A DNA stretch of 47,482 bases from a virus: the IMG/VR virus record IMGVR_UViG_3300046642_000056, positions 1-47,482 of that record. The stretch is one strand, 5' to 3'. A program made the position numbers and the translations under genes. Shown here in pieces: positions 6,379 through 47,482 of the stretch. Each line of letters begins with the position of its first letter. The first letter of the stretch is position 1. The notes below the pieces were generated by a model. That model made no database searches and was not told where the DNA came from. It was given only the letters and a program-made list of their open reading frames with translations.

Positions 6379-6970
6379 TTACATCCACCGTTTCAAAGGA
6401 GGATTCTTTAGCGAATCCTGGATTGTACATAACGATGGACGGGCCATTTAGATTCAAGCCGCCATGTCCATTATCCACTGATGGCTCCATATCCTTAATT
6501 ACACCGGACATGGATTTGGCAACTAAAGCTAAGTCTTTAAGATTAGCGTTCTCTAACTTCTCTTCCGTAATATGTTCAATCGCAAGATTCAGTTTATTAC
6601 GAGCTTTAACTGCTACTCGCATCTTAGATGCTTTTAGTTTATCGCTGAGTTTCTTATTAGGATTATTATAAGTAGCAGTTGATGTCGCTCCATTGCTGTA
6701 CGCGGAAACACTGGAGTCAGATACACCGACCATCTTAGCAAATTGTAAAGCAGCCGCCCGTCCGTCCTCAGCAGCCGTGGTACCAATAATTTCTCTAAGT
6801 ACTTCGGGTACGTTCTGATCACCTTGGCTGCGCCCACCTCTATTGATATCAATTATTACAGGATCAGATACAGGAGGAATTTGTGCGGGCTTATTAGATG
6901 GAACGGGACTCCGATTACCGTTCTCAATCTCTAATTCAAAATCGTCGTCTGATACTACGCCTATAGGCAT
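6371..6970 (-). CDS. Probable terminase small subunit
   Basis: 199 residues. The central part contains a helix-turn-helix-like stretch (AALQFAKMVGVSDSSVSAYS, about 93-112) preceded by an acidic/Pro-rich linker and followed by long helices (KLNLAIEHITEEKLENANLK), the layout of DNA-recognising small terminases: HTH, oligomerisation helices, tail. It is the second gene of the late unit, upstream of terL but separated from it by the lysis-like block. The assignment rests on architecture and position, not on a diagnostic motif. Confidence 0.55.
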   Translation of the reverse strand: MPIGVVSDDDFELEIENGNRSPVPSNKPAQIPPVSDPVIIDINRGGRSQGDQNVPEVLREIIGTTAAEDGRAAALQFAKMVGVSDSSVSAYSNGATSTATYNNPNKKLSDKLKASKMRVAVKARNKLNLAIEHITEEKLENANLKDLALVAKSMSGVIKDMEPSVDNGHGGLNLNGPSIVMYNPGFAKESSFETVDVND

Positions 6971-6974
6971 CGTC

Positions 6975-7127
6975 TTAAACTCTAAAGTCCGTAGCAGAAT
7001 CTGTAAATAGCCACTCGAAGAACATTACACTAGTCAATAATACAAGTAATAGAATTAAAGTCGGTAGTATGAACAGAAATTGAAGTATGGATCTGATTGC
7101 GTGTATGCACACACGAATAATATTCAT
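6975..7127 (-). CDS. 50-residue single-pass membrane protein, first gene of the late unit
   Basis: A minus-strand frame from ATG 7127 to TAA at 6975 encodes a strongly hydrophobic segment (FLFILPTLILLLVLLTSVMF) between a short N-terminal helix and a charged C-terminus. It ends 5 nt before the probable small terminase and starts about 35 nt downstream of a promoter-like sequence. No good SD is visible, so the start is uncertain. The hydrophobic profile is unlikely in non-coding DNA. Function unknown. Confidence 0.5.
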   Translation of the reverse strand: MNIIRVCIHAIRSILQFLFILPTLILLLVLLTSVMFFEWLFTDSATDFRV

Positions 7128-7162
7128 TAGAGTAAATATTCATATAGGGCGGGGACGAGAAC

Positions 7163-7192
7163 AGCTTAGCACGACAGTTCCGTTGATGTCAA
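7163..7192 (-). promoter_or_regulatory. Candidate late promoter (minus strand)
   Basis: Read on the minus strand: perfect TTGACA (7187-7192), 18-nt spacer ending in TGC (extended -10), then TAAGCT (7163-7168), a poor -10. It is the only -35-like consensus upstream of the whole leftward unit. The weak -10 could imply activation by a phage factor; inference. Confidence 0.4.
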
Positions 7193-7323
7193 GCAGAATT
7201 TACAACTTTCTTTTACCTACTACCGGCTCGGTCGGGCGGCCATATATAGAGGATGGCCCATTGCCGGGGCTGGCTTGACTCAGGTTCAACGCGGTCAATC
7301 AGATGCGGCCATCAGGACGGACC

Positions 7324-7352
7324 TTGACAGCCGCGCTCCTAGGGCCGATAAT
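7324..7352 (+). promoter_or_regulatory. Early sigma70-type promoter P1
   Basis: TTGACA (7324-7329), 17-nt spacer, GATAAT (7347-7352), directly ahead of the first rightward gene. A short GC-rich hairpin, CCGGC-TTC-GCCGG (7356-7368), falls at the expected transcript start and may stabilise the 5' end. Confidence 0.75.
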
Positions 7353-7393
7353 GGACCGGCTTCGCCGGACTTCATACTACGATTGGATATAAA

Positions 7394-7600
7394 ATGTCTA
7401 CACGTTTCCTTCCTAATCCCGTAACTAAAGTATGTAAGGAATGTCGTAAAGATTTCCAGACTGATCTACGTAGCAGGCGATTCTGCTGTGATAAATGTAG
7501 GAATGAAAACTGGGTAAGACTACATCGCTACAAGGATGGTGAAGAAAGGAAATCTATCCTAGCTAACTACGAGGATTATATTAAAAAAAGAATGCTTTGA
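7394..7600 (+). CDS. Zinc-finger small protein, first early gene
   Basis: 68 residues with CKEC ... CCDKC (C14, C17, C31/C32, C35), i.e. C-x2-C-x13-14-C-x2/3-C, followed by a basic helix (NWVRLHRYKDGEERK). This resembles treble-clef/zinc-ribbon proteins that bind nucleic acid or RNA polymerase. It lies about 35 nt downstream of P1, so it should be among the first phage products; host takeover is a reasonable but unproven role. The start has only GGATATAAA upstream, a poor SD. Confidence 0.7.
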   Translation: MSTRFLPNPVTKVCKECRKDFQTDLRSRRFCCDKCRNENWVRLHRYKDGEERKSILANYEDYIKKRML

Positions 7601-8023
7601 AAATTTTCTGACATAAGCACGATTAATACCACCCCCGGCAAGAACCATGCCAAGCATGCTTCTTTTACAGGGGTGTATACTCCCCTCCAGTATCGCCCGG
7701 CCGACTTTGCAATCCAAAGCTGTAACTCTACAATCCAAAGCTATAACTTTGCGCCACAAATCGGCATACTTTCGGATATTGTTCTGCCGCACAGGTGACT
7801 TATATGTAATGCTAATGGATGACGAAGCCACAGCGAATCGACGTAAACTCAACGGAACAAAGCACTTAGCGTCCTATGCATGTAGGCATTGGACGTGGCA
7901 GACGGTATGCTATATACATACTTGTATTTCGTTCGCGTGCGACGGTAACCGCTACGTTACCGCTAGGATGGAGGTTCTGTTAAGGACTACTCGTGTGTAT
8001 CGCTTCGTTGGTAACGTGTAACC
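7601..8023 (+). other. Non-coding leader with short repeats
   Basis: No convincing gene. It contains tandem ~21-bp repeats CAATCCAAAGCTGTAACTCT / CAATCCAAAGCTATAACTTT (7710-7751), palindrome AAGCATGCTT near 7650, hairpin AGGGG...CCCCT (7667-7684) and GGTAAC-CGCTAC-GTTACC (7944-7961). An ORF ending at 8021 is open but has no good SD and unusual composition; it is rejected as a gene. Confidence 0.5.
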
Positions 8024-8280
8024 ATGCTTCGTGCATACCTGTAGCTCACGCTATCAGGGAGTGTAGTAACACTCTTACACTTAGCCCAGTCCTATGCGCG
8101 GTGTGACTAGCACCGTTCTCCAACCCTGAAAAGGGAGTAGGATGCACGCCGGATATCTAGTTCTCACTTGTCGGTCTTACAAGCTGGCAATAGTTCAAAA
8201 AAGGTCTAGTTCGCTCCGCACAGTTTTGCGGAGTAGGCATAGGAACCTGCATCCTACAACGTAGCGCAGTCATTGCTACG
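8024..8280 (+). ncRNA. Candidate multi-helix structured RNA
   Basis: A 257-nt stretch without a usable ORF contains at least seven stems: ATGC/GCAT (8024-8036), GAGTGT-AGTA-ACACTC (8059-8074), CGGTG/CACCG (8099-8115), CCCT-GAAA-AGGG with a GNRA tetraloop (8124-8135), a long-range 9-bp GTAGGATGC/GCATCCTAC (8137-8145 with 8249-8257) enclosing CTTGT/ACAAG (8167-8183) and CTCCGCA/TGCGGAG (8214-8233), then CGTAGC/GCTACG (8260-8280). Most stems are perfect and ordered without conflict, as in a folded non-coding RNA. It would be transcribed from P1. No known class (tRNA, tmRNA, group I intron, riboswitch) was recognised. Confidence 0.45.
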
Positions 8281-8299
8281 GTATAAGAATAAGGGGAAT

Positions 8300-8446
8300 A
8301 TGACCGGCCTGAGATGGCTTAAAAGGAATATACTAGTAGCGGTGAACGCGATTGTGAGTCTAGTTAGATACTCGGATTTACGGATACGCTGGCTTACCAG
8401 TTATCCTGATACAGTCTTTAACTTTGCCTCATGCTGGTGGGAATGA
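8300..8446 (+). CDS. 48-residue hypothetical protein
   Basis: ATG 8300 is preceded by AAGGGG at 3 nt, a somewhat close but usable SD. The product is basic and partly hydrophobic (RNILVAVNAIVSLVRYSDLR), possibly membrane-associated, and ends in CWWE. It lies immediately after the candidate structured RNA and before another repeat-rich stretch. Part of its sequence (8360-8377) is repeated at 8614-8630, so it may be a chance ORF in a repeat region. Confidence 0.4.
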   Translation: MTGLRWLKRNILVAVNAIVSLVRYSDLRIRWLTSYPDTVFNFASCWWE

Positions 8447-8470
8447 CGCAATTCCCAAATAGCTTGCTCC

Positions 8471-8614
8471 GTCCCTCAATATCACTAGTCAATAAGGCTG
8501 CAGCATATTCGATACGGGGGAGCGCCACCTGATTGCCTATAGGCTGTTAATCGGATACCGGCATTGTCTGAGTATCTTATTAGGCTCACAATCGCACAGT
8601 CTCAGCTGAGGGAC
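8471..8614 (+). ncRNA. Second candidate structured element
   Basis: A 144-nt gene-free stretch closed by GTCCCTCA (8471-8478) and TGAGGGAC (8607-8614). Inside are GATT-GCCTATAGGC-TGTT-AATC (8531-8552, with a 10-bp palindrome) and GATAC/GTATC (8554-8576), and the 10-bp palindrome CTCAGCTGAG (8601-8610) overlaps the closing arm. It may belong to the same transcript as 8024-8280. Confidence 0.35.
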
Positions 8615-8880
8615 TAGTTAGATGCTCGATACTTTACCTATTGAGGTATCAAGCATGAAAGATAACTTGCTCCATCATCTTCTGACCGGCTCACAAAAGG
8701 ATTTTAAGAATACGCAAGCAGCGTATCGTATCCTTATGCGCGCTGGCGTTCCGTTGGATGACGTTATCAGGATTCTGGAGAACGCTGCTTACAATCGCCT
8801 TTCCATGAATCGTCCGGTCGCTGTCGCTACTCGCTAGTCATTAACCTTTTCGTATTGAGCATCTTATTAGTCCCTCAGCT
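8603..8880. repeat. Inverted repeats flanking a small gene
   Basis: CAGCTGAGGGACTAGTTAG (8603-8621) is repeated inverted at about 8862-8880, with a 12-bp perfect core AGTCCCTCAGCT, enclosing the 8655..8837 gene. Separately, GAGTATCTTATTAG (8570-8583) recurs directly as GAGCATCTTATTAG (8857-8870), and CTAGTTAGATACTCGGAT (8360-8377) as CTAGTTAGATGCTCGAT (8614-8630). Confidence 0.6.
8655..8837 (+). CDS. Small helical hypothetical protein
   Basis: 60 residues. ATG 8655 is chosen over 8622 because GAGGT precedes it by about 9 nt. The central part AYRILMRAGVPLDDVIRILE looks like a compact three-helix (UBA/CUE-like) segment; this is a pattern impression, not a family call. The gene is bracketed by inverted repeats and lies among other tiny early ORFs. 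Function unknown. Confidence 0.6.
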   Translation: MKDNLLHHLLTGSQKDFKNTQAAYRILMRAGVPLDDVIRILENAAYNRLSMNRPVAVATR

Positions 8881-8907
8881 AACTTTTACTTGTGAGGTGC
8901 AATTCCA

Positions 8908-9147
8908 ATGTCCACAATGAAACGAGAATACTCGATTCAGTATTTTCAGAATGCCGATTGGATTAGGATTTCTGGCATTTATGAAAATCCTGACGAGATT
9001 AGGACTATCATTGCTGATATGGCTTTTGATGGCCTTATCACAAGAATAGTAGCTAGAAACTATTCTCATGACTTCTGGTCAACAGTTCAGATTTCCAGCA
9101 GTCAACAGATTGTTCTAGGCGATACTATTCATTCCTGTCCTAGGTAA
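8908..9147 (+). CDS. Hypothetical early protein
   Basis: 79 residues. GAGGTG lies 8 nt before ATG 8908, a strong site. The leader TGTGAGGTGCAAT is nearly repeated before the 10241 gene. The N-terminal half (YSIQYFQNADWIRISGIYEN) weakly resembles the product at 9401 (YSLFERPANTTRWTRIST), so the two could be diverged paralogs. No motif of known function. Confidence 0.65.
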   Translation: MSTMKREYSIQYFQNADWIRISGIYENPDEIRTIIADMAFDGLITRIVARNYSHDFWSTVQISSSQQIVLGDTIHSCPR

Positions 9148-9152
9148 TTCCA

Positions 9153-9272
9153 ATGAAACACTTACCCAATTGGACGGCATTAGACTTCATGCTGCTTTAC
9201 ATGTCAGAGGGACATGCAGAGTTAGCGCGAATCTATGCAATCCGCTTAGTCAGGAGTCTTCGCAATGTGTAA
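9153..9272 (+). CDS. 39-residue hypothetical peptide
   Basis: It starts 5 nt after the previous stop; TAGGTAATTCCA precedes the ATG. The product (FMLLYMSEGHAELARIYAIR) is a single helical hairpin, with a basic C-terminus. Its 3' end overlaps the next gene by 8 nt, suggesting a translationally coupled chain of very small early genes. No function assigned. Confidence 0.5.
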   Translation: MKHLPNWTALDFMLLYMSEGHAELARIYAIRLVRSLRNV

Positions 9273-9417
9273 GACTGTTGACGAGCGTTTAGAGCTGATT
9301 CGTAAATCAGTTAGTCTTTTCCAAAAAGAGACTAATACGACTGCTCATGACCGGATGCTACTTGCTAAGTTTATTGAATGGCAAGTAAGGTTAATCCTAA
9401 ATGAAAACAAGCTGTAA
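9265..9417 (+). CDS. 50-residue hypothetical helical protein
   Basis: ATG 9265 lies inside the previous gene, about 11 nt after CAGGAG, a good SD. The product is entirely helical and charged (TVDERLELIRKSVSLFQKET ... FIEWQVRLILNENKL), compatible with a small coiled-coil or adaptor protein. It overlaps the following gene by 17 nt. No family recognised. Confidence 0.55.
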   Translation: MCKTVDERLELIRKSVSLFQKETNTTAHDRMLLAKFIEWQVRLILNENKL

Positions 9418-9622
9418 ACGTTACAGTCTATTCGAGCGTCCAGCTAATACTACTCGCTGGACTAGGATTTCTACAATGGCGTATATTCGTAATACTGCCA
9501 TTCGTATATACGCGCCTGCTATACAGGAATATTTGTTATCAGGCAATACTCGCATTGAACGTGCTATCCGCCCGGTCAATGAACGTCCCTTTCTGGCACA
9601 CTCTAATCAGACCGTTCGATAG
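9401..9622 (+). CDS. Basic hypothetical protein
   Basis: 73 residues, arginine-rich, starting at ATG 9401 within the preceding gene. It contains TTRWTRISTMAYIRNTAIRI, weakly similar in spacing (YS...W.RIS) to the 8908 product. It ends 3 nt before promoter P2, so it closes the first early operon; the lack of a terminator there suggests readthrough. Function unknown. Confidence 0.55.
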   Translation: MKTSCKRYSLFERPANTTRWTRISTMAYIRNTAIRIYAPAIQEYLLSGNTRIERAIRPVNERPFLAHSNQTVR

Positions 9623-9625
9623 TGC

Positions 9626-9654
9626 TTGACTTTCTTGCCCGACTATGATAGAAT
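9626..9654 (+). promoter_or_regulatory. Strong sigma70-type promoter P2 with extended -10
   Basis: TTGACT (9626-9631), 17-nt spacer, TGA then TAGAAT (9649-9654). It precedes a monocistronic-looking gene by a 130-nt leader. Confidence 0.8.
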
Positions 9655-9675
9655 GTCCTTAGTTGGTCGGGCAAG
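9634..9675. promoter_or_regulatory. Perfect 10-bp inverted repeat around the P2 -10 element
   Basis: CTTGCCCGAC (9634-9643) and GTCGGGCAAG (9666-9675) are exact complements, separated by 22 nt that contain the -10 box and start site. The placement fits an operator for a dimeric repressor, or a hairpin at the 5' end of the transcript. The heptamer GTCGGGC also occurs at 7231 and 12956, near P1 and P4. Confidence 0.6.
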
Positions 9676-9784
9676 ACAGCGAATCACTCCGACCGCAAAT
9701 CTCTGGTTCGTTTCGGGACACTACTCGCTACGCTCGTTTAGTTCTAGTTCGTAAACAGTAAACTGTATTTTAGGAGAAAAGACA

Positions 9785-10138
9785 ATGAAGACTGTAAAGT
9801 TCACCGGCACGATGGAAAATGCTTATGGTAAGGTTCTCGCCGAAAAGCTTCCTTTTGAAGGCGAGTTTGACGCGTATGAGAATTTGGATGAAGTTCGCGC
9901 GGCTGGCGAATATCCAAAGGATTCTGAAATTCTCGATTTCGTCAATGGCAAGGTTAAGGCGAATGCGCGTCAGAAGTCAATGAATGCTGCACTTCAGGCG
10001 GCTGGTATTTCCAAGCCTACTCTGGAAGACCCGCAGGTTCAGCTTGCTACGATTATCAAGGCACTCATTGCCGGTGGACGTGATGAGGCTACTGCTACGA
10101 AGCTGGCGGAAGATACTCTCGGCGTGAAGAAAGCGTAA
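9785..10138 (+). CDS. Probably highly expressed early protein of unknown function
   Basis: 117 residues. It has its own promoter (P2), a strong SD (TAGGAGAAAAGACA), and a rho-independent terminator 53 nt after its stop, the layout of an abundant early product. The N-terminal half is beta-like (MKTVKFTGTMENAYGKVLAE); the C-terminal half is helical and ends in GGRDEATATKLAEDTLGV, a motif shared with the 49-residue product at 10241. Codon choice looks more GC-rich and uniform than in neighbours. No family recognised; candidates are a DNA-binding or host-modifying protein. Confidence 0.75.
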   Translation: MKTVKFTGTMENAYGKVLAEKLPFEGEFDAYENLDEVRAAGEYPKDSEILDFVNGKVKANARQKSMNAALQAAGISKPTLEDPQVQLATIIKALIAGGRDEATATKLAEDTLGVKKA

Positions 10139-10190
10139 CTTTCCTAATCCGTTTGCCAGTATCGTATAAACTGGCACATTCATAAACATG

Positions 10191-10224
10191 CCGCCTAGTC
10201 AGTATTTGATTAGGCGGTATTTTT
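10191..10224 (+). terminator. Rho-independent terminator
   Basis: CCGCCTAGTC (10191-10200) pairs with GATTAGGCGG (10209-10218; one G-U), followed by TATTTTTA. A smaller hairpin TGCCAGT...ACTGGCA lies just upstream (about 10154-10176). Confidence 0.85.
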
Positions 10225-10240
10225 ATGTATGTGAGGTGCA

Positions 10241-10390
10241 ATGAAAACTAAAGAGCAACTTCAATACTCGATTCTATTATCCAAAATAATAGATGCTTTA
10301 ATGGAATGTGGATATAAAGAATCCACAGCTACACAACTTGCTAGGAAAATGCTACCTCCTAGACACAAGCTGAAAAAGGACGTGAAATGA
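10241..10390 (+). CDS. 49-residue protein with the same C-terminal motif as the 9785 product
   Basis: ATG 10241 is preceded by GTGAGGTGCA, a strong SD. The product ends with GYKESTATQLARKMLPP, which matches GGRDEATATKLAEDTLGV of the upstream gene (shared G..[E/D].TAT.LA...L), suggesting a small helical domain used alone here and as a tail there. The next gene overlaps by ATGA. Confidence 0.6.
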   Translation: MKTKEQLQYSILLSKIIDALMECGYKESTATQLARKMLPPRHKLKKDVK

Positions 10391-10467
10391 GTTTTCACAA
10401 TTGGCATTTCTTTCCTACTCGATTAGGAAACAAAGTCTACAAGATTCTTTGGCTTGGACAAGACTAA
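10387..10467 (+). CDS. 26-residue peptide ORF
   Basis: ATGA overlap with the preceding stop supports coupling, but the product (MSFHNWHFFPTRLGNKVYKI plus WLGQD) is very short, so coding status is uncertain. It could be a leader peptide for the palindromic region that follows. Confidence 0.3.
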   Translation: MSFHNWHFFPTRLGNKVYKILWLGQD

Positions 10468-10525
10468 CAGTAGTCTTTACATGTAGTCTCGGGGGATGGC
10501 CTATTTTGTGACAGTCTGGGTGGGG

Positions 10526-10737
10526 GTATCCTCTTTCTCTGAGTCTCAAGTAAAAGGCCACAATCGAACGGAGCGACCTGAAAAGAGGACAGCGGCGCAA
10601 GCACAAAGTAAAGATATATTCTTTTTTTTTTTTTTTTTTTTTTTATTATCTTTACTTCTTTTCCGCGCCTGTCCTCTTTTGAGGTCACTCTTGACTTTAC
10701 TGCCCTATCTATGGTATACTCAGAAAGAGAGGATACC
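10526..10737. repeat. 212-nt imperfect palindrome with a T23 run at its apex
   Basis: Three nested arm pairs: GGTATCCTCTTTCTCTGAGT (10526-10545) with 10718-10737 (18/20 complementary), GACCTGAAAAGAGGACAG (10575-10592) with 10669-10686 (17/18), and AAGTAAAGATA (10606-10616) with TATCTTTACTT (10647-10657; perfect). The apex holds T23 at 10622-10644. There is no gene from 10468 to 10826. The layout could be a replication origin, a bidirectional terminator, or a miniature inverted-repeat element. P3 lies in its right arm. Confidence 0.8.
10691..10720 (+). promoter_or_regulatory. Promoter P3, inside the palindrome
   Basis: TTGACT (10691-10696), 18-nt spacer ending TGG (extended -10), TATACT (10715-10720). 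It drives the 10827 operon and lies in the right arm of the palindrome, so cruciform extrusion or binding there could control it. Confidence 0.75.
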
Positions 10738-10759
10738 GGGAGAGAGGGTATGTGTCAAA

Positions 10760-10810
10760 ACGGCACACTTTAGTGTCTCAGGACGGCACACTGTCCGGTT
10801 CTAGGACACT
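10760..10810. promoter_or_regulatory. Operator-like repeats between P3 and the first gene
   Basis: ACGGCACACT occurs twice, 23 nt apart (10760-10769, 10783-10792). AGTGTC (10772) and GACACT (10805), with GGAC (10781) and GTCC (10793), form a nested inverted repeat. This may be a protein-binding site or a leader hairpin. Confidence 0.5.
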
Positions 10811-10826
10811 AATATGTAGGAATAGT

Positions 10827-11036
10827 ATGAAATATCCACAAATTAAGGCAAGTTCATTCAGGGTTAAGTGGAATTTACGAGAAGTGCATAAGATAACACA
10901 GTGGAAAGATGATTGTGTATATCGAACGCGCTCGCTCGGTTTAGTCGTATGCATGCCGGACTATAAACTATTAGGCGAGTCTAAGAATTATATGATTGGC
11001 AGCGTTTCGACTAGGGTAACAAAGGAATTGCAATGA
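10827..11036 (+). CDS. Hypothetical basic early protein
   Basis: 69 residues from ATG 10827 (TAGGA 5 nt upstream). An upstream in-frame codon at 10752 would place the operator repeats inside the gene, so the shorter form is preferred. The sequence is basic with beta-type spacing (SFRVKWNLREVHKITQWKDD) and has no recognisable domain. It is the first gene after P3 and overlaps the next by ATGA. Confidence 0.6.
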   Translation: MKYPQIKASSFRVKWNLREVHKITQWKDDCVYRTRSLGLVVCMPDYKLLGESKNYMIGSVSTRVTKELQ

Positions 11037-11335
11037 GTAGTAAAAATCCCAAGCATGTTCACAAATACTTTAAGGCCAATATGCAATTTGGCAACGTTTG
11101 GGCATGCGCGCTTCCGAATTGTCAGCATTATATGCCAAAGCATATGGAGGACATTTTACCGGGTAAATGGACTGCATGCTGGAGTTGTAGTGGAAAAACT
11201 ACAATGGACAGCAGAACGATGGCTATGGATAAGCCATTATGCGAATCTTGTGACCCTAACGCAATCGGAGTAGAATCGGACCCGGAATTAGTAGAGAAAC
11301 TGAAAGAATTGGGAATTATTGGGAAGTTGGAATAG
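11033..11335 (+). CDS. Multi-cysteine zinc protein
   Basis: 100 residues with cysteine pairs CALPNC (about 25-30), CWSC (49-52) and CESC (70-73), plus several histidines, compatible with one or two zinc ribbons. The N-terminus KHVHKYFKANMQFGNVWACA resembles the start of phage zinc-ribbon proteins. The C-terminus is an acidic helix. It is coupled on both sides. A nucleic-acid-binding or transcription-modifying role is plausible; none proven. Confidence 0.65.
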   Translation: MSSKNPKHVHKYFKANMQFGNVWACALPNCQHYMPKHMEDILPGKWTACWSCSGKTTMDSRTMAMDKPLCESCDPNAIGVESDPELVEKLKELGIIGKLE

Positions 11336-18797: not shown

Positions 18798-18805
18798 TTA
18801 GAGTT

Positions 18806-18893
18806 TATGTAAGTAGGATGACTACCGAATATATTGAATAGGTAGACGCATGGTCCCTTTGGCTCGTTGCGCTGTGAACATCCTACTTACATA
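18806..18893 (+). other. 88-nt stem-closed element (15-bp perfect inverted repeat)
   Basis: TATGTAAGTAGGATG (18806-18820) pairs exactly with 18879-18893. Inside are CTACC/GGTAG with a 13-nt loop and CGCA/TGCG, so a three-way junction can be drawn. It lies between the SSB-like gene and an acidic-protein gene, with no T tract and no tRNA T-arm. The GTAGGATG/CATCCTAC core equals the long-range helix of the 8137/8249 element. Possibly a cis-regulatory RNA or processing site. Confidence 0.7.
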
Positions 18894-18920
18894 ATAATTG
18901 TTTAGACTAAAGGAGAGAAA

Positions 18921-19268: not shown

Positions 19269-19562
19269 GTGAGCGAAGCTCAAAGTGGTGAGAAGTTTCC
19301 ATTTGGAAACGAAAGAATTGAAGGGAAGATTATTGCTATTAATCAAAGGGGATTCGGATTTATTTCAACAATGAAGGTTCCATTTACTCGGATCTATTTC
19401 CACTGGACGAATCTAATTCCTACCACGATCAATTTTAAGGAACTTAAACGAAATGATCCGGTAGATTTCGTTCTGGAAATGAAAGAGAATGGAACGTACA
19501 AAGCAATTAAGATTGACGTACTCGAACGCGAAACGCAAACGACTCAGGAAGCAAAAGGGTGA
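19269..19562 (+). CDS. Cold-shock-domain protein
   Basis: 97 residues from GTG 19269 (CGGGG upstream). A longer frame from 19170 would run through the hairpin and is rejected. Motifs: EGKIIAINQRGFGFIS and TRIYFHWTNL match RNP1/RNP2-like strands of the CSD OB fold (GFGFI; FxH), followed by KRNDPVDFVLEMKENGTYKA. CSD proteins bind single-stranded RNA/DNA as chaperones. It ends in a GTGA overlap with the polymerase gene, so the two are co-translated. Confidence 0.75.
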   Translation: MSEAQSGEKFPFGNERIEGKIIAINQRGFGFISTMKVPFTRIYFHWTNLIPTTINFKELKRNDPVDFVLEMKENGTYKAIKIDVLERETQTTQEAKG

Positions 19563-21280
19563 GCGATAACTACGTACCGGGGATGGGTCCAACTAGTCCC
19601 CGAATAATGCTATTGGGTGAAGCCCCCACTACAATGGACGTAATAAAGAAGCGTCCATTTGCTAACACCCGTGAATTAGATTTACTATTAAAAGATGCAG
19701 GTATCCAAAAGGGTAACTGCTGGATGACGAACGTCTTCAAAGAACCTATTCCAGCATCACCAACTAAGAAGAAGATACCAGCATTTGTTAGAGCTGAACA
19801 AGCCGGACTAAATATTAGGCAGTCCCTTCTAGAACTCCAGACGGAGATTAACGGTGTTAAACCGAATATTATAATCGGACTTGGTGGCACAGCACTGTGG
19901 GCACTAACCGGAATTAAACCTAGAGGTAAGAAAAAGAAAAATGAAGACGACCGCGTTTCTCTCCCTCATGGTGGGATTACTGATTATCGGGGTTCTATTC
20001 TGTTTGGAATGGGACGAAAAGTAGTCTGTACATATAATCCAGCACAGCTAGATTGGAATGCATCAGATATTGAATTTAATGGTTACTGGAATCGTCAAGT
20101 AATCATAAACGATTTGAAACGGGGACTTGAAGAATCGTTCGATGAGAAGTTAAATCTGCCACAGCGTACCATTGAAATCTGTAAGTCTTCTGAACAGTTT
20201 GCAAGGTTCAGAGAGATGTACAAGAATAAGATGGAGATGGCAGTAGATATTGAAGCAGGCGGACATTTCCTTCCAGCCGCTATTGGCTTTGCATTTACTA
20301 GAACGCATGCGATGGTCGTTCCACTCTGGAATATAAACGAGTATAAGTTTATTCCAGATAGTGACATGGCTCGGATGTGGCTTCATGTGAGTGAATTATT
20401 ATATGAAAAAGAAATCATCGGGCAAAACTTCAATTACGATCGAGATAAAATTAGGAGAATTGGATTCATCATCCGAAGACTTAAGTCTGATATCATGCTT
20501 AAATGTCATGCAATTAACCCAGAGCTTCCAAAGAGTCTTGCTTTCAACACTTCAATATATACCAAGGAGCCCTTCTATAAAAATGAAGGTATGTACGAAG
20601 GATCGTTTGACGACTTACTACTTGGATGCGGACGGGATTGTTGCGTCACCAAAGAGATTGACGAAGTTACGGAGCCTGAACTTGAAGAAATCGGACAAAA
20701 ATCCTACTTCTACAACTTCATGATGAAGTGGCCGGAACTGTATCTTCTTATGGAGAATACCGGCTTTAAGGTTGATTACGATAAGCGGGATGATTTACTT
20801 CGTAAATATGTAGCATGGACGGAGAAACTACAATATGAACTCTTCCTTCTCACAGGGTTCAATCTTAATGTCAACTCGCCTAAACAGGTTAACTTTCTTT
20901 TATTCGAAGAACTCAAACTTCCTCGCCGTGCAGGTACAAGTGAAGAAGAACTTACGAGTTTGCTTAATCTACAGTCCTTCACTGACGAGAGTAAACGCAC
21001 TATCGTTGAGAAGATTTTGGAAAAGCGGAGGGTTGATAAAAGTATCGGGACTTATCTTATGGCGCTTCCGGATTACGATGGTAGGATGAAAACTACATAC
21101 TTCCCTTGTTTAGATACGGGGCGGAGTAAGACGGGTCAGCAGGAGCCTCCGATTAGACCGACTATTGATATTGTAGATAACGGTAAGAAGAAAAAGAAAT
21201 GCATGGGAACTGCATTCCAAACTATTACTAAGCATGGAGACATTGGACAGGACATCCGTTCAATGTACATTCCCGGTTAG
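19559..21280 (+). CDS. DNA polymerase family A, N-terminal half: UDG-like domain + 3'-5' exonuclease + start of polymerase domain
   Basis: 573 residues, GTG start in a GTGA overlap. About 15-180: uracil-DNA-glycosylase-like fold (LLGEAPTTMDVIKKRPFANT, TNVFKEPIP, CTYNPAQLDW). About 225-375: DnaQ-type exonuclease (AVDIEAGG with D230/E232; GQNFNYDRD; CGRDCCVT). From about 400: polymerase thumb/palm start, with TYFPCLDTGRSKTGQQEPP and IGQDIRSMYIPG, where it stops exactly before motif A. The catalytic rest is in 21506..22375. UDG-PolA fusions are known in phages such as SPO1. The stop makes this half inactive as a polymerase alone. Confidence 0.9.
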   Translation: MSDNYVPGMGPTSPRIMLLGEAPTTMDVIKKRPFANTRELDLLLKDAGIQKGNCWMTNVFKEPIPASPTKKKIPAFVRAEQAGLNIRQSLLELQTEINGVKPNIIIGLGGTALWALTGIKPRGKKKKNEDDRVSLPHGGITDYRGSILFGMGRKVVCTYNPAQLDWNASDIEFNGYWNRQVIINDLKRGLEESFDEKLNLPQRTIEICKSSEQFARFREMYKNKMEMAVDIEAGGHFLPAAIGFAFTRTHAMVVPLWNINEYKFIPDSDMARMWLHVSELLYEKEIIGQNFNYDRDKIRRIGFIIRRLKSDIMLKCHAINPELPKSLAFNTSIYTKEPFYKNEGMYEGSFDDLLLGCGRDCCVTKEIDEVTEPELEEIGQKSYFYNFMMKWPELYLLMENTGFKVDYDKRDDLLRKYVAWTEKLQYELFLLTGFNLNVNSPKQVNFLLFEELKLPRRAGTSEEELTSLLNLQSFTDESKRTIVEKILEKRRVDKSIGTYLMALPDYDGRMKTTYFPCLDTGRSKTGQQEPPIRPTIDIVDNGKKKKKCMGTAFQTITKHGDIGQDIRSMYIPG

Positions 21281-21288
21281 GAGAATCA

Positions 21289-21513
21289 ATGGCTATAATT
21301 GCAGATGACTGGACAATCATTAATACAATGGGTATTAGATATGTTCAAAAAAGTAATGCCGATGAAGCATATGCTAGAAATCCATTAAGTATTTATGGAT
21401 TAATTGTACATTACAAGGGTACTCATGTTCATTATATGTATCCAACTGCCGCGCTTCGTGATGCTCAATTTGATGCCTTGAGAGCTGCAATGGCGACTAA
21501 GAAAAATGGCTGA
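21289..21513 (+). CDS. 74-residue ORF between the two polymerase halves
   Basis: TAGGAGAATCA before ATG 21289 is a good SD. The product (IYGLIVHYKGTHVHYMYPTA ... LRDAQFDALRAAMATKKNG) is alpha/beta, with no homing-endonuclease or intein motif. It overlaps the second polymerase half by 8 nt, so all three are probably co-translated. It may be what splits the polymerase, or a subunit-bridging peptide; unknown. Confidence 0.65.
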   Translation: MAIIADDWTIINTMGIRYVQKSNADEAYARNPLSIYGLIVHYKGTHVHYMYPTAALRDAQFDALRAAMATKKNG

Positions 21514-22375
21514 GATATTCGTACAGGCTGATAGTAGTCAGGCAGAGGCAAGAATCGTCTTCTTGTTAGCTAATGATGAACAAGCACTAAAGGATATAGA
21601 CGAACATGATTATCACGCTCTCACTGCTTCTTGGTTCTTCGGCGGCACTGAATTTGATTATTCTAAAAAAGTGTTGGGATATGAGCATCCGATTAGATTT
21701 GCTGGCAAGACTCTCAGACACGCCGGACATCTCGGAGCAAGTAAAAATCGCGCCACTGTTGAACTTAATACTCAGGCGCGGAAATACAAAATTCCCATCA
21801 AAATAGATCCTGCGACTAGCGACCGCGCTCTTAAGATATTTCATAAGAAGCAGCCGAAGATTCAGGGCGTATTTCAGAATGGAATCGTCGAATGTCTCAA
21901 ACGTAATCGTACACTTGTGGCGCCAATACCGTGGGGATTTGATATCGAATACGGAGGTCGGCGTACTTTCTTTGAAAGATTTGGAGACGATTTGTTCCGA
22001 ATGGCCTTCAGTTATATCCCCCAACGGGGAGTATCTGATAATACTAAAGCCGCTGGGATCAGAATCCTTCGTATCATTGAGGATATCAAGATCATAATGG
22101 AGTCACATGATGCTCTTTTATTCTCTTTCGACGACAAGTATTTGGACACTTACTGTCCTATCATTAAACGTGAGATGGAGCGTCCAATCAATTTCGAGAA
22201 TTGTAGTCTTAAACGGCGCGCTCTCAAGATACCGTGTGATGTGGAAATAGGCTACAATTACCAAGACTTCAAAAAGTATAAACAGATTAAGGAACTCGAA
22301 AATATAGAAATAGAAATACCGAAGGAGGAAGTATGCAAGAAAAAATCATTTATCGTGGACGAGAATACCCTATAG
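21506..22375 (+). CDS. DNA polymerase family A, C-terminal catalytic half
   Basis: 289 residues. Motif A QADSSQAEAR (D9...E14, R16), motif B HPIRFAGKTLRHAGHLGAS (R64, K68), a QGxxAD-like PQRGVSD, and motif C ESHDALLFSF (H201-D202): both catalytic aspartates are present. By alignment to E. coli Pol I, the site of F762 is His72 and that of Y766 is Leu76, both unusual. It needs the upstream gene for exonuclease and thumb. Start ATG 21506 lies in the end of the inserted ORF. Confidence 0.9.
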   Translation: MAEIFVQADSSQAEARIVFLLANDEQALKDIDEHDYHALTASWFFGGTEFDYSKKVLGYEHPIRFAGKTLRHAGHLGASKNRATVELNTQARKYKIPIKIDPATSDRALKIFHKKQPKIQGVFQNGIVECLKRNRTLVAPIPWGFDIEYGGRRTFFERFGDDLFRMAFSYIPQRGVSDNTKAAGIRILRIIEDIKIIMESHDALLFSFDDKYLDTYCPIIKREMERPINFENCSLKRRALKIPCDVEIGYNYQDFKKYKQIKELENIEIEIPKEEVCKKKSFIVDENTL

Positions 22376-24262: not shown

Positions 24263-24346
24263 CCCTCCGTGGCGAAACAGGCAAACGCATTGGACTTAAA
24301 ATCCAACGTCCGTAAGGACTTCTCAGTTCGACTCTGAGCGGAGGGA
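24263..24346 (+). tRNA. tRNA-Leu (anticodon UAA)
   Basis: Full class II cloverleaf: acceptor CCCTCCG/CGGAGGG, D stem GCG/CGC with GG in the loop, anticodon stem TTGGA/TCCAA with loop CTTAAAA (anticodon TAA), variable arm GTCC-GTAA-GGAC, T arm CTCAG-TTCGACT-CTGAG, discriminator A. CCA is not encoded. The 3' acceptor strand is also the SD of the next gene. Confidence 0.95.
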
Positions 24347-46357: not shown

Positions 46358-47482
46358 TATCCTTCTCCGCTAATGGGGTTGCATTCCCTTTAGGCGCAGG
46401 TTGACTACCTTTATTGGGGGCACCTGCTGCAACTGGTGGAGGTCCGGGATTTACAGTTATTAACTGCATATGCGCTTGCATATGTAAGAGAATATTCTGA
46501 TATCCGTCCTTGTTAGCACTATTCTTTAATTGTCTACCTGCTTCACCTACGAGGAACTTTCTGCAAATTGCTGCATGAATTTCATGATCATCTACAGTAG
46601 GTTCAACAGGTACAGATGGTCCCATTGTAGGCTGACCATCCGGTCCCATTCCTTCTGGAGTAGGAGCACCAATCATTAACTCTTTAATCTCTTCTAACTG
46701 TTTCTCTCTGTCGTCTTCTCCGGGTATATTAAAGTCAGTGAGGCCAATAGCAGTCTGTAAACTATCAATGTTAGAAGGATCAGCGACAACCTTCGCAACA
46801 ATTGGATTAGGATTCTGAAGGAGTTCCATAATGGTATCCTTCTGCTGACTCCAATTGAGCGGAATATTCTCATTAGCTTCTAATTCGATTCGTCCTATCT
46901 TTCCCTCAGTCTCGGCTTTCTTAATGAAGACGTTAAAAAAAGATCCCGCCTCGTCCTGACGAACTTCTTTCTCGTCTTCCTGCATTTCCTGAATGAACAT
47001 TGGAATAACTTTGCCAAAGATATCCTTCCACCATGAGGTGAATATCTTCCAAGTATTCTGTTGCCTCTGCATAGCCTGAGCACGACTCATACTGTATTCA
47101 GAAGCCGTGCGTCCGCCATTAGTCTGCTGCCCACCGAATAGACTTGGTAATGCACCAGAAACTAACTGACCTAATTCCTGTACCTTCTGGAAGAATGGTA
47201 GGACTTCAGGACTTAAGTTAGCAGTCTTTAGTTCATAGAATGCTTCATTAAGTGGCTTACCTGCTTTAGCTCTAACAGGATAAATAGATCCCGGAGCTAC
47301 TTCAGTCTGCTGATACTTCTTAAAGTTTAATACATCAGGGTCCGCGAAAGTTTGGCCGATGCCATGTTCAATAGTCTGGAGAACTAATGAGATGATATCA
47401 TTTGTGATATCTTGAATGCTAACCAACTGAGAGCCAGAAGGATCAAAGTGAATATAATCAGAGAGTGGATTGTAGGTGAGAG
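46338..47482 (-). CDS. Portal protein, C-terminal part (continues from the window start)
   Basis: The frame is open from the right edge to TAA at 46338. The first codons repeat the coding sequence of 1-386 in a variant form, so this segment joins the 1..1569 part to give one portal of about 775 residues. The C-terminal region has a helix-rich start (ITNDIISLVLQTIEHGIGQT), a Q-rich stretch (YSMSRAQAMQRQQNTWKIFT), and a Pro/Gly-rich tail. A TTG at 47426 is only an artefact of the cut. Confidence 0.85.
   Translation of the reverse strand, partial: LTYNPLSDYIHFDPSGSQLVSIQDITNDIISLVLQTIEHGIGQTFADPDVLNFKKYQQTEVAPGSIYPVRAKAGKPLNEAFYELKTANLSPEVLPFFQKVQELGQLVSGALPSLFGGQQTNGGRTASEYSMSRAQAMQRQQNTWKIFTSWWKDIFGKVIPMFIQEMQEDEKEVRQDEAGSFFNVFIKKAETEGKIGRIELEANENIPLNWSQQKDTIMELLQNPNPIVAKVVADPSNIDSLQTAIGLTDFNIPGEDDREKQLEEIKELMIGAPTPEGMGPDGQPTMGPSVPVEPTVDDHEIHAAICRKFLVGEAGRQLKNSANKDGYQNILLHMQAHMQLITVNPGPPPVAAGAPNKGSQPAPKGNATPLAEKDNVPTQS
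47097..47482. repeat. Terminal overlap, copy 2 (matches 1..386)
   Basis: Same portal segment as 1-386 with about 27 silent differences; the 5' 118 bases and the last ~40 are identical, the variants cluster between. Supports circular closure with strain variation. Confidence 0.9.

Follow-up and report, generated by a model that had tools for sequence, protein, structure and literature searches.

A candidate structured leader RNA followed by long-range helices in the early region of a phage genome

A 257-nt stretch without genes, positions 8024-8280 of a viral genome, raises the question of whether an undescribed structured RNA lies there and, if so, where that RNA begins and what stands beside it. 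The whole sequence analysed, referred to here as the window, is IMG/VR virus record IMGVR_UViG_3300046642_000056, positions 1 to 47,482 (47,482 nt). A preliminary description of this DNA had proposed a gene-free RNA of no recognised class with seven stems, transcribed at the start of the early unit from P1. The ORF list contains no credible ORF within 8024-8280, and all seven stems are present in the sequence, including the GNRA-capped hairpin, which lies at 8124-8135, and the long-range helix, which was described as 9 bp and comprises 10 bp in the sequence and 9 bp in the fold. The stems are therefore real, and are as follows (evidence in brackets).

8059-8074: hairpin GAGTGT-AGTA-ACACTC (sequence)
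8098-8116: GC-rich hairpin (sequence)
8124-8135, + strand: hairpin CCCU-GAAA-AGGG with the GNRA tetraloop GAAA (sequence, predicted fold)
8137-8146/8248-8257, + strand: perfect 10-bp helix around further hairpins (sequence, predicted fold)
8168-8190, + strand: hairpin with loop CUUACAA, common to the related phage L127 (local match, compensatory pair)
8214-8233, + strand: hairpin CTCCGCA/TGCGGAG (hairpin count against shuffles)
8260-8280: stem (sequence)

The helix 8137-8146/8248-8257 has no comparative support outside the same phage. Elsewhere in the window, 18805-18894 holds a perfect 16-bp helix, TTATGTAAGTAGGATG/CATCCTACTTACATAA, whose GTAGGATG part is identical to that of helix 8137-8146. 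A possible pseudoknot, a 7-bp match between 8091-8097 and 8237-8243 noticed by eye, was set aside because chance alone is expected to yield a match of this length in a stretch of such size. No intrinsic terminator or attenuator, in the form of a GC-rich hairpin with a T run, occurs within 8024-8280. The claim that the stretch belongs to no recognised RNA class stands, in that the gathering thresholds of Rfam 15 were not reached anywhere over 8024-8280. The only Rfam match in the whole window is a tRNA at 24263, and permissive E-values returned only chance-like matches over 6900-11200.

The folding energy of 8024-8280 had been named as a check on the proposal. Its minimum free energy of -88.2 kcal/mol corresponds to a z-score of -3.45, with none of 200 shuffles as low, and a repeat computation gave -3.18. 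The stretch thus beats its shuffles, but among 24 size-matched segments of the early coding unit (mean z -1.46, sd 1.40), three are as low as 8024-8280. Folding energy alone is therefore weak evidence and was dropped as sole support. These coding segments lend some weight to the explanation that the stretch is ordinary noncoding leader DNA, folding no better than is usual for this genome, with only its promoter conserved and no conserved RNA function. Against that explanation stands the density of hairpins, which number four to seven times those of shuffled copies: three hairpins of 6 or more Watson-Crick pairs whose loops span 3-10 nt are present where 0.41 are expected (3 of 500 shuffles reach three), and six with at least 5 pairs where 1.5 are expected (0 of 300 shuffles reach six).

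Homologues of the stretch itself are scarce. No direct homologue of 8024-8280 was found in the phages collection, nor did the early-region DNA match anything there, and the neighbouring small proteins, used as baits, recovered the same phage or very few others only. Comparison drew on relatives defined as viral contigs with a terminase at about 53-81% identity; no terminase relatives were present in genome_contigs. Among these relatives the only homologue of the whole 257 nt is in the same phage, and their early regions cannot be aligned with the window apart from short conserved elements. These elements include a promoter and a 5' block upstream of position 8024, which define the following features.

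7896-7911, + strand: promoter element of the -24/-12 (sigma-54-like) type, TGGCAGACGGTATGCT (sole exact match to the pattern in the window)
7921-7943, + strand: conserved 5' block of the leader, CTTGTATTTCGTTCGCGTGCGACG region (similar in L127, L101, L018 and L114)
7922-8299, + strand: proposed leader RNA (start from promoter spacing, end at a possible small ORF)

In the relatives, the promoter element takes the form TGGCA(C/T)-N5-(A/T)TGC(A/T), spaced like a sigma-54 -24/-12 promoter, and it is enriched in their early regions (31 occurrences against about 0.2 in shuffles). Promoters of the sigma-54 (-24/-12) class carry GG and GC 12 nt apart. The element of the window and its relatives, TGGCA-N6-TGC, shares this distance between GG and GC, but it lies in phage early regions and is a putative promoter, classed by its sequence. 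The window's copy keeps the 12-nt spacing and deviates by one letter, G for C/T; a scan with the strict sigma-54 consensus gave no excess in the window. Several elements of this type, some of them almost exactly the sigma-54 consensus (TTGGCACGNNNNTTGCT), are crowded together on both strands in the early regions of L113, L114 and L059.

The element occupies the same place in the relatives as in the window. There it precedes a gene-free leader that is bounded by the divergent promoters on one side and by the first small gene on the other, and in the window it lies directly upstream of the proposed leader, before the first small gene. The 5' block at 7921-7943 matches L127 with an E-value of 6e-6 and is also similar in L101, L018 and L114, while a degenerate pattern of the window-type block recovered no additional relative from the viral collection. 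The promoter element, the 5' block and the place of the leader are conserved. The element at 7896-7911, together with its spacing, puts the start of the RNA near 7922, so that the leader transcript probably begins there rather than at 8024, and a possible small ORF (8300-8446) follows directly after the proposed leader. An early leader RNA of about 7922-8299 (fold z -2.36) then probably has 8024-8280 as its 3' two-thirds, and the boundary at 8024 proposed earlier cuts off the 5' part. That the stretch stands at the head of the early unit is borne out; the RNA may be independent of P1 (7324-7352), the conserved promoter at 7896-7911 being closer.

The leaders of nine other sequences end in the hairpin GGCUGAUAAGCGCAGCC, the loop of which can pair further downstream (AGCG with CGCU). 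This GAUAAGCGC pseudoknot motif shows compensatory changes across the nine sequences, with two-sided changes at three hairpin pairs and at one pair of the second stem; in L104, AGCA with UGCU takes the place of AGCG/CGCU. A covarying motif in sister leaders speaks against ordinary leader DNA. A covariance model of this 3' motif, R1, built from the nine sequences, scores its members at 42-75 bits, and its best match in the window reaches 7.5 bits (E 0.6) and lies outside 8024-8280. Since the model misses the window, membership of the window in the leader group rests on its promoter, 5' block and place, and not on the GAUAAGCGC motif. In L018 (5599-5998), L022 (4929-5329) and L013 (5389-5788), the early regions also contain arrays of short repeats such as CGTGTCGTAA, each pairing with another array that lies about 300 nt off; none was seen in the window.

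The body of the window leader cannot be aligned with that of L018 (p 0.58) or L101 (p 0.10), and the leaders of L101 and L084 have weak fold z-scores (-0.5 and -0.85), all of which fits ordinary leader DNA. Conversely, one hairpin is common to the window and L127, where UUGUCGGU-CUUACAA-GCUGGCAA (8168-8190) corresponds to UUAUCGGC-CUGACAA-GCUGGUAA. The two differ by one compensatory pair and one change from U.G to C-G. Local comparison of the window and L127 leaders scores best over this hairpin (p 0.013), and within 208 kb of early regions no further sense hairpin combines this type of loop with a stem of 8 bp; in L101, an identical loop sits on a 4-bp stem. This comparison makes 8168-8190 the one stem of 8024-8280 with outside support, which is suggestive and not proof. 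On balance, an ordinary leader with a conserved promoter alone appears unlikely, though it carries appreciable weight. The leader is best regarded as a candidate for an undescribed structured RNA heading the early unit, a proposal that gains from the relatives' leaders at the same place, the shared 5' block and the L127 hairpin, and that falls short in having no whole-length homologue outside the same phage. The RNAs GOLLD and ROOL occur in bacteria and have a link to phages. Like them, the leader is a multi-stem RNA candidate without a gene; unlike these large ornate noncoding RNAs (PMC12286853), it has no Rfam match, is much shorter and is apparently an operon leader.

The strongest RNA structures at this locus are not the stems of 8024-8280, but two long-range helices within 8348-8882. 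In a helix scan of the whole window, helix B ranked first (8604-8632/8852-8880) and helix A second (8348-8377/8566-8595).

8348-8595, + strand: helix A, arms 8348-8376/8567-8595, loop of 190 nt with no convincing gene inside (helix scan, family member)
8602-8882, + strand: helix B, arms 8602-8632/8852-8882, loop of 219 nt with one small gene inside (helix scan, family member)
8622-8837, + strand: 71-aa early gene inside helix B, start codon in the 5' arm (ORF with a Shine-Dalgarno-like sequence)

Helices A and B are copies of each other, and the pairs that vary between them differ on both sides. Both have the core in the 5' arm and the complementary downstream 3' arm that characterise a family found in the relatives, at one to four helices per phage. 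Sixteen family helices from 10 phages were aligned by eye on this shared core, which centres on GAGUCUARU; they also have in common a central mismatch, most often G.G. In a count over 14 family helices, pairing holds in 95.8% of the cells and 23 of the 24 aligned pairs show two-sided changes, figures to which the selection of the helices for complementarity itself contributes in part. When 5' arms were instead found by sequence alone, all seven with enough downstream sequence had a partner at 21-22 of 22 positions, against at most 16-19 in shuffles. As the first helix scans favoured G.U pairs, the scan was repeated with equal penalties for G.U and A.C. On the strand that is sense for the early genes, the family helices then contain 23 G.U against 2 A.C (p 2e-5), whereas other helices from the same scan contain 55 and 54.

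The G.U bias, the partners of the arms found by sequence and the two-sided pair changes together indicate selection on pairing in the sense RNA. The comparison thus points to a helix family under selection for RNA pairing in the sense strand, and the data support the reading that these helices act as RNA there. The arms are, nevertheless, near-perfect inverted repeats, with copies side by side and a copy number that varies among phages, as might be expected of DNA features, that is, inverted repeats bounding mobile minigene cassettes, or protein binding sites, for which RNA pairing would be a by-product. Yet nothing about DNA repeats would account for a strand bias of 23 to 2 where other helices are even, and neighbouring enclosed-gene families recur in order rather than scattered. 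A purely DNA-level origin of the helices is accordingly quite improbable.

Most loops of 190-384 nt hold one ORF of about 45-93 codons that is led by a Shine-Dalgarno sequence and lies near both arms; in most cases, it starts 11-27 nt after the 5' arm and stops 5-15 nt before the 3' arm. Two enclosed protein families were seen by eye to recur, one MLISPYAR-like (L044, L084, L127, L018 and L096) and the other MDLKHVTF-like (L044 and L127). In the window, helix B encloses one such small ORF, the 71-aa gene, which matched no known family, and helix A does not; one helix of L104 likewise lacks a convincing gene, and no gene lies inside several of the shorter family-like helices. The Shine-Dalgarno-like sequence and start codon of the gene in helix B lie inside the 5' arm, as would suit helices that control translation, with arms that hide ribosome sites or keep the message shut, to be opened by a protein or a ribosome. 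In most relatives, however, both signals lie 11-27 nt past the arm, in the open loop, and translation control in place of processing is therefore rather unlikely.

The nearest known counterparts of the helices, by analogy, are the processing stems of rRNA precursors and the RNase III sites of phage T7. The processing stems of the 16S and 23S rRNA precursors are cut by RNase III. In those stems, as here, two distant arms pair around an RNA unit to be released; the phage helices differ in enclosing a small gene and in forming several units in a row, and their cutting is a proposal only. The early mRNA of T7 contains RNase III sites between its early genes. Like the helices, these are double-stranded elements with internal mismatches among early genes, but they are local hairpins between genes, whereas the arms of the phage helices lie 86-384 nt apart, mostly around a gene.

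Processing of the RNase III type is the best guess for the helices. In the scheme proposed, the leader at 7922-8299 would be transcribed rightward from the conserved -24/-12-type promoter and fold into several hairpins, with the long-range helices directly after it, B around 8622-8837 and A around a short noncoding insert. RNase III, or a similar double-strand-specific enzyme, would cut the early transcript at the helices, with the conserved central mismatch positioning the cut. From this we infer that cutting would leave protected single-gene messages, and that the leader may act at the 5' end of the first unit to govern its stability or translation. The chances of this scheme as a whole are about even.

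A wider generalisation is more tentative, and is somewhat less probable than its opposite: that the early message of this phage group is a chain of RNA units, mostly one small gene in a dedicated long helix with a conserved central mismatch recognised by a protein of the host or phage, and that a folded leader from a sigma-54-type promoter stands at the head of this chain. If so, such a chain of helix-wrapped units would be an undescribed mRNA architecture, and the wrapping of early genes one by one a new way to cut or protect messages, for which the protein that reads the conserved mismatch could be sought. In the open-access literature searched, no account of gene-enclosing helices of this kind or of such a leader turned up, an absence that is weak evidence. 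The -24/-12-type promoters moreover suggest that the phages may make early transcription depend on a host activator, an arrangement that would be unusual.

Several further features of the genome were observed. The ends of the window, 1-386 and 47097-47482, form a direct repeat, 93% identical, inside the portal gene; this repeat makes a circular or permuted genome probable, and the two ends may come from different strains. The gene for a family A DNA polymerase is split into ORFs 19559-21280 and 21506-22375, the former with an N-terminal part that matches the uracil-DNA glycosylase family, a fusion. The gene is continuous in four relatives, but in G016 (L043) a gap of 959 nt interrupts it at about the same place, which makes an intron or similar insertion at 21281-21505 likely; Rfam gave no match to either gap. 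Finally, 10525-10737 folds into a nested hairpin, long at about 213 nt and tipped by a T run, upstream of the gene at 11033, and a similar T run lies upstream of the homologue of that gene in L026.
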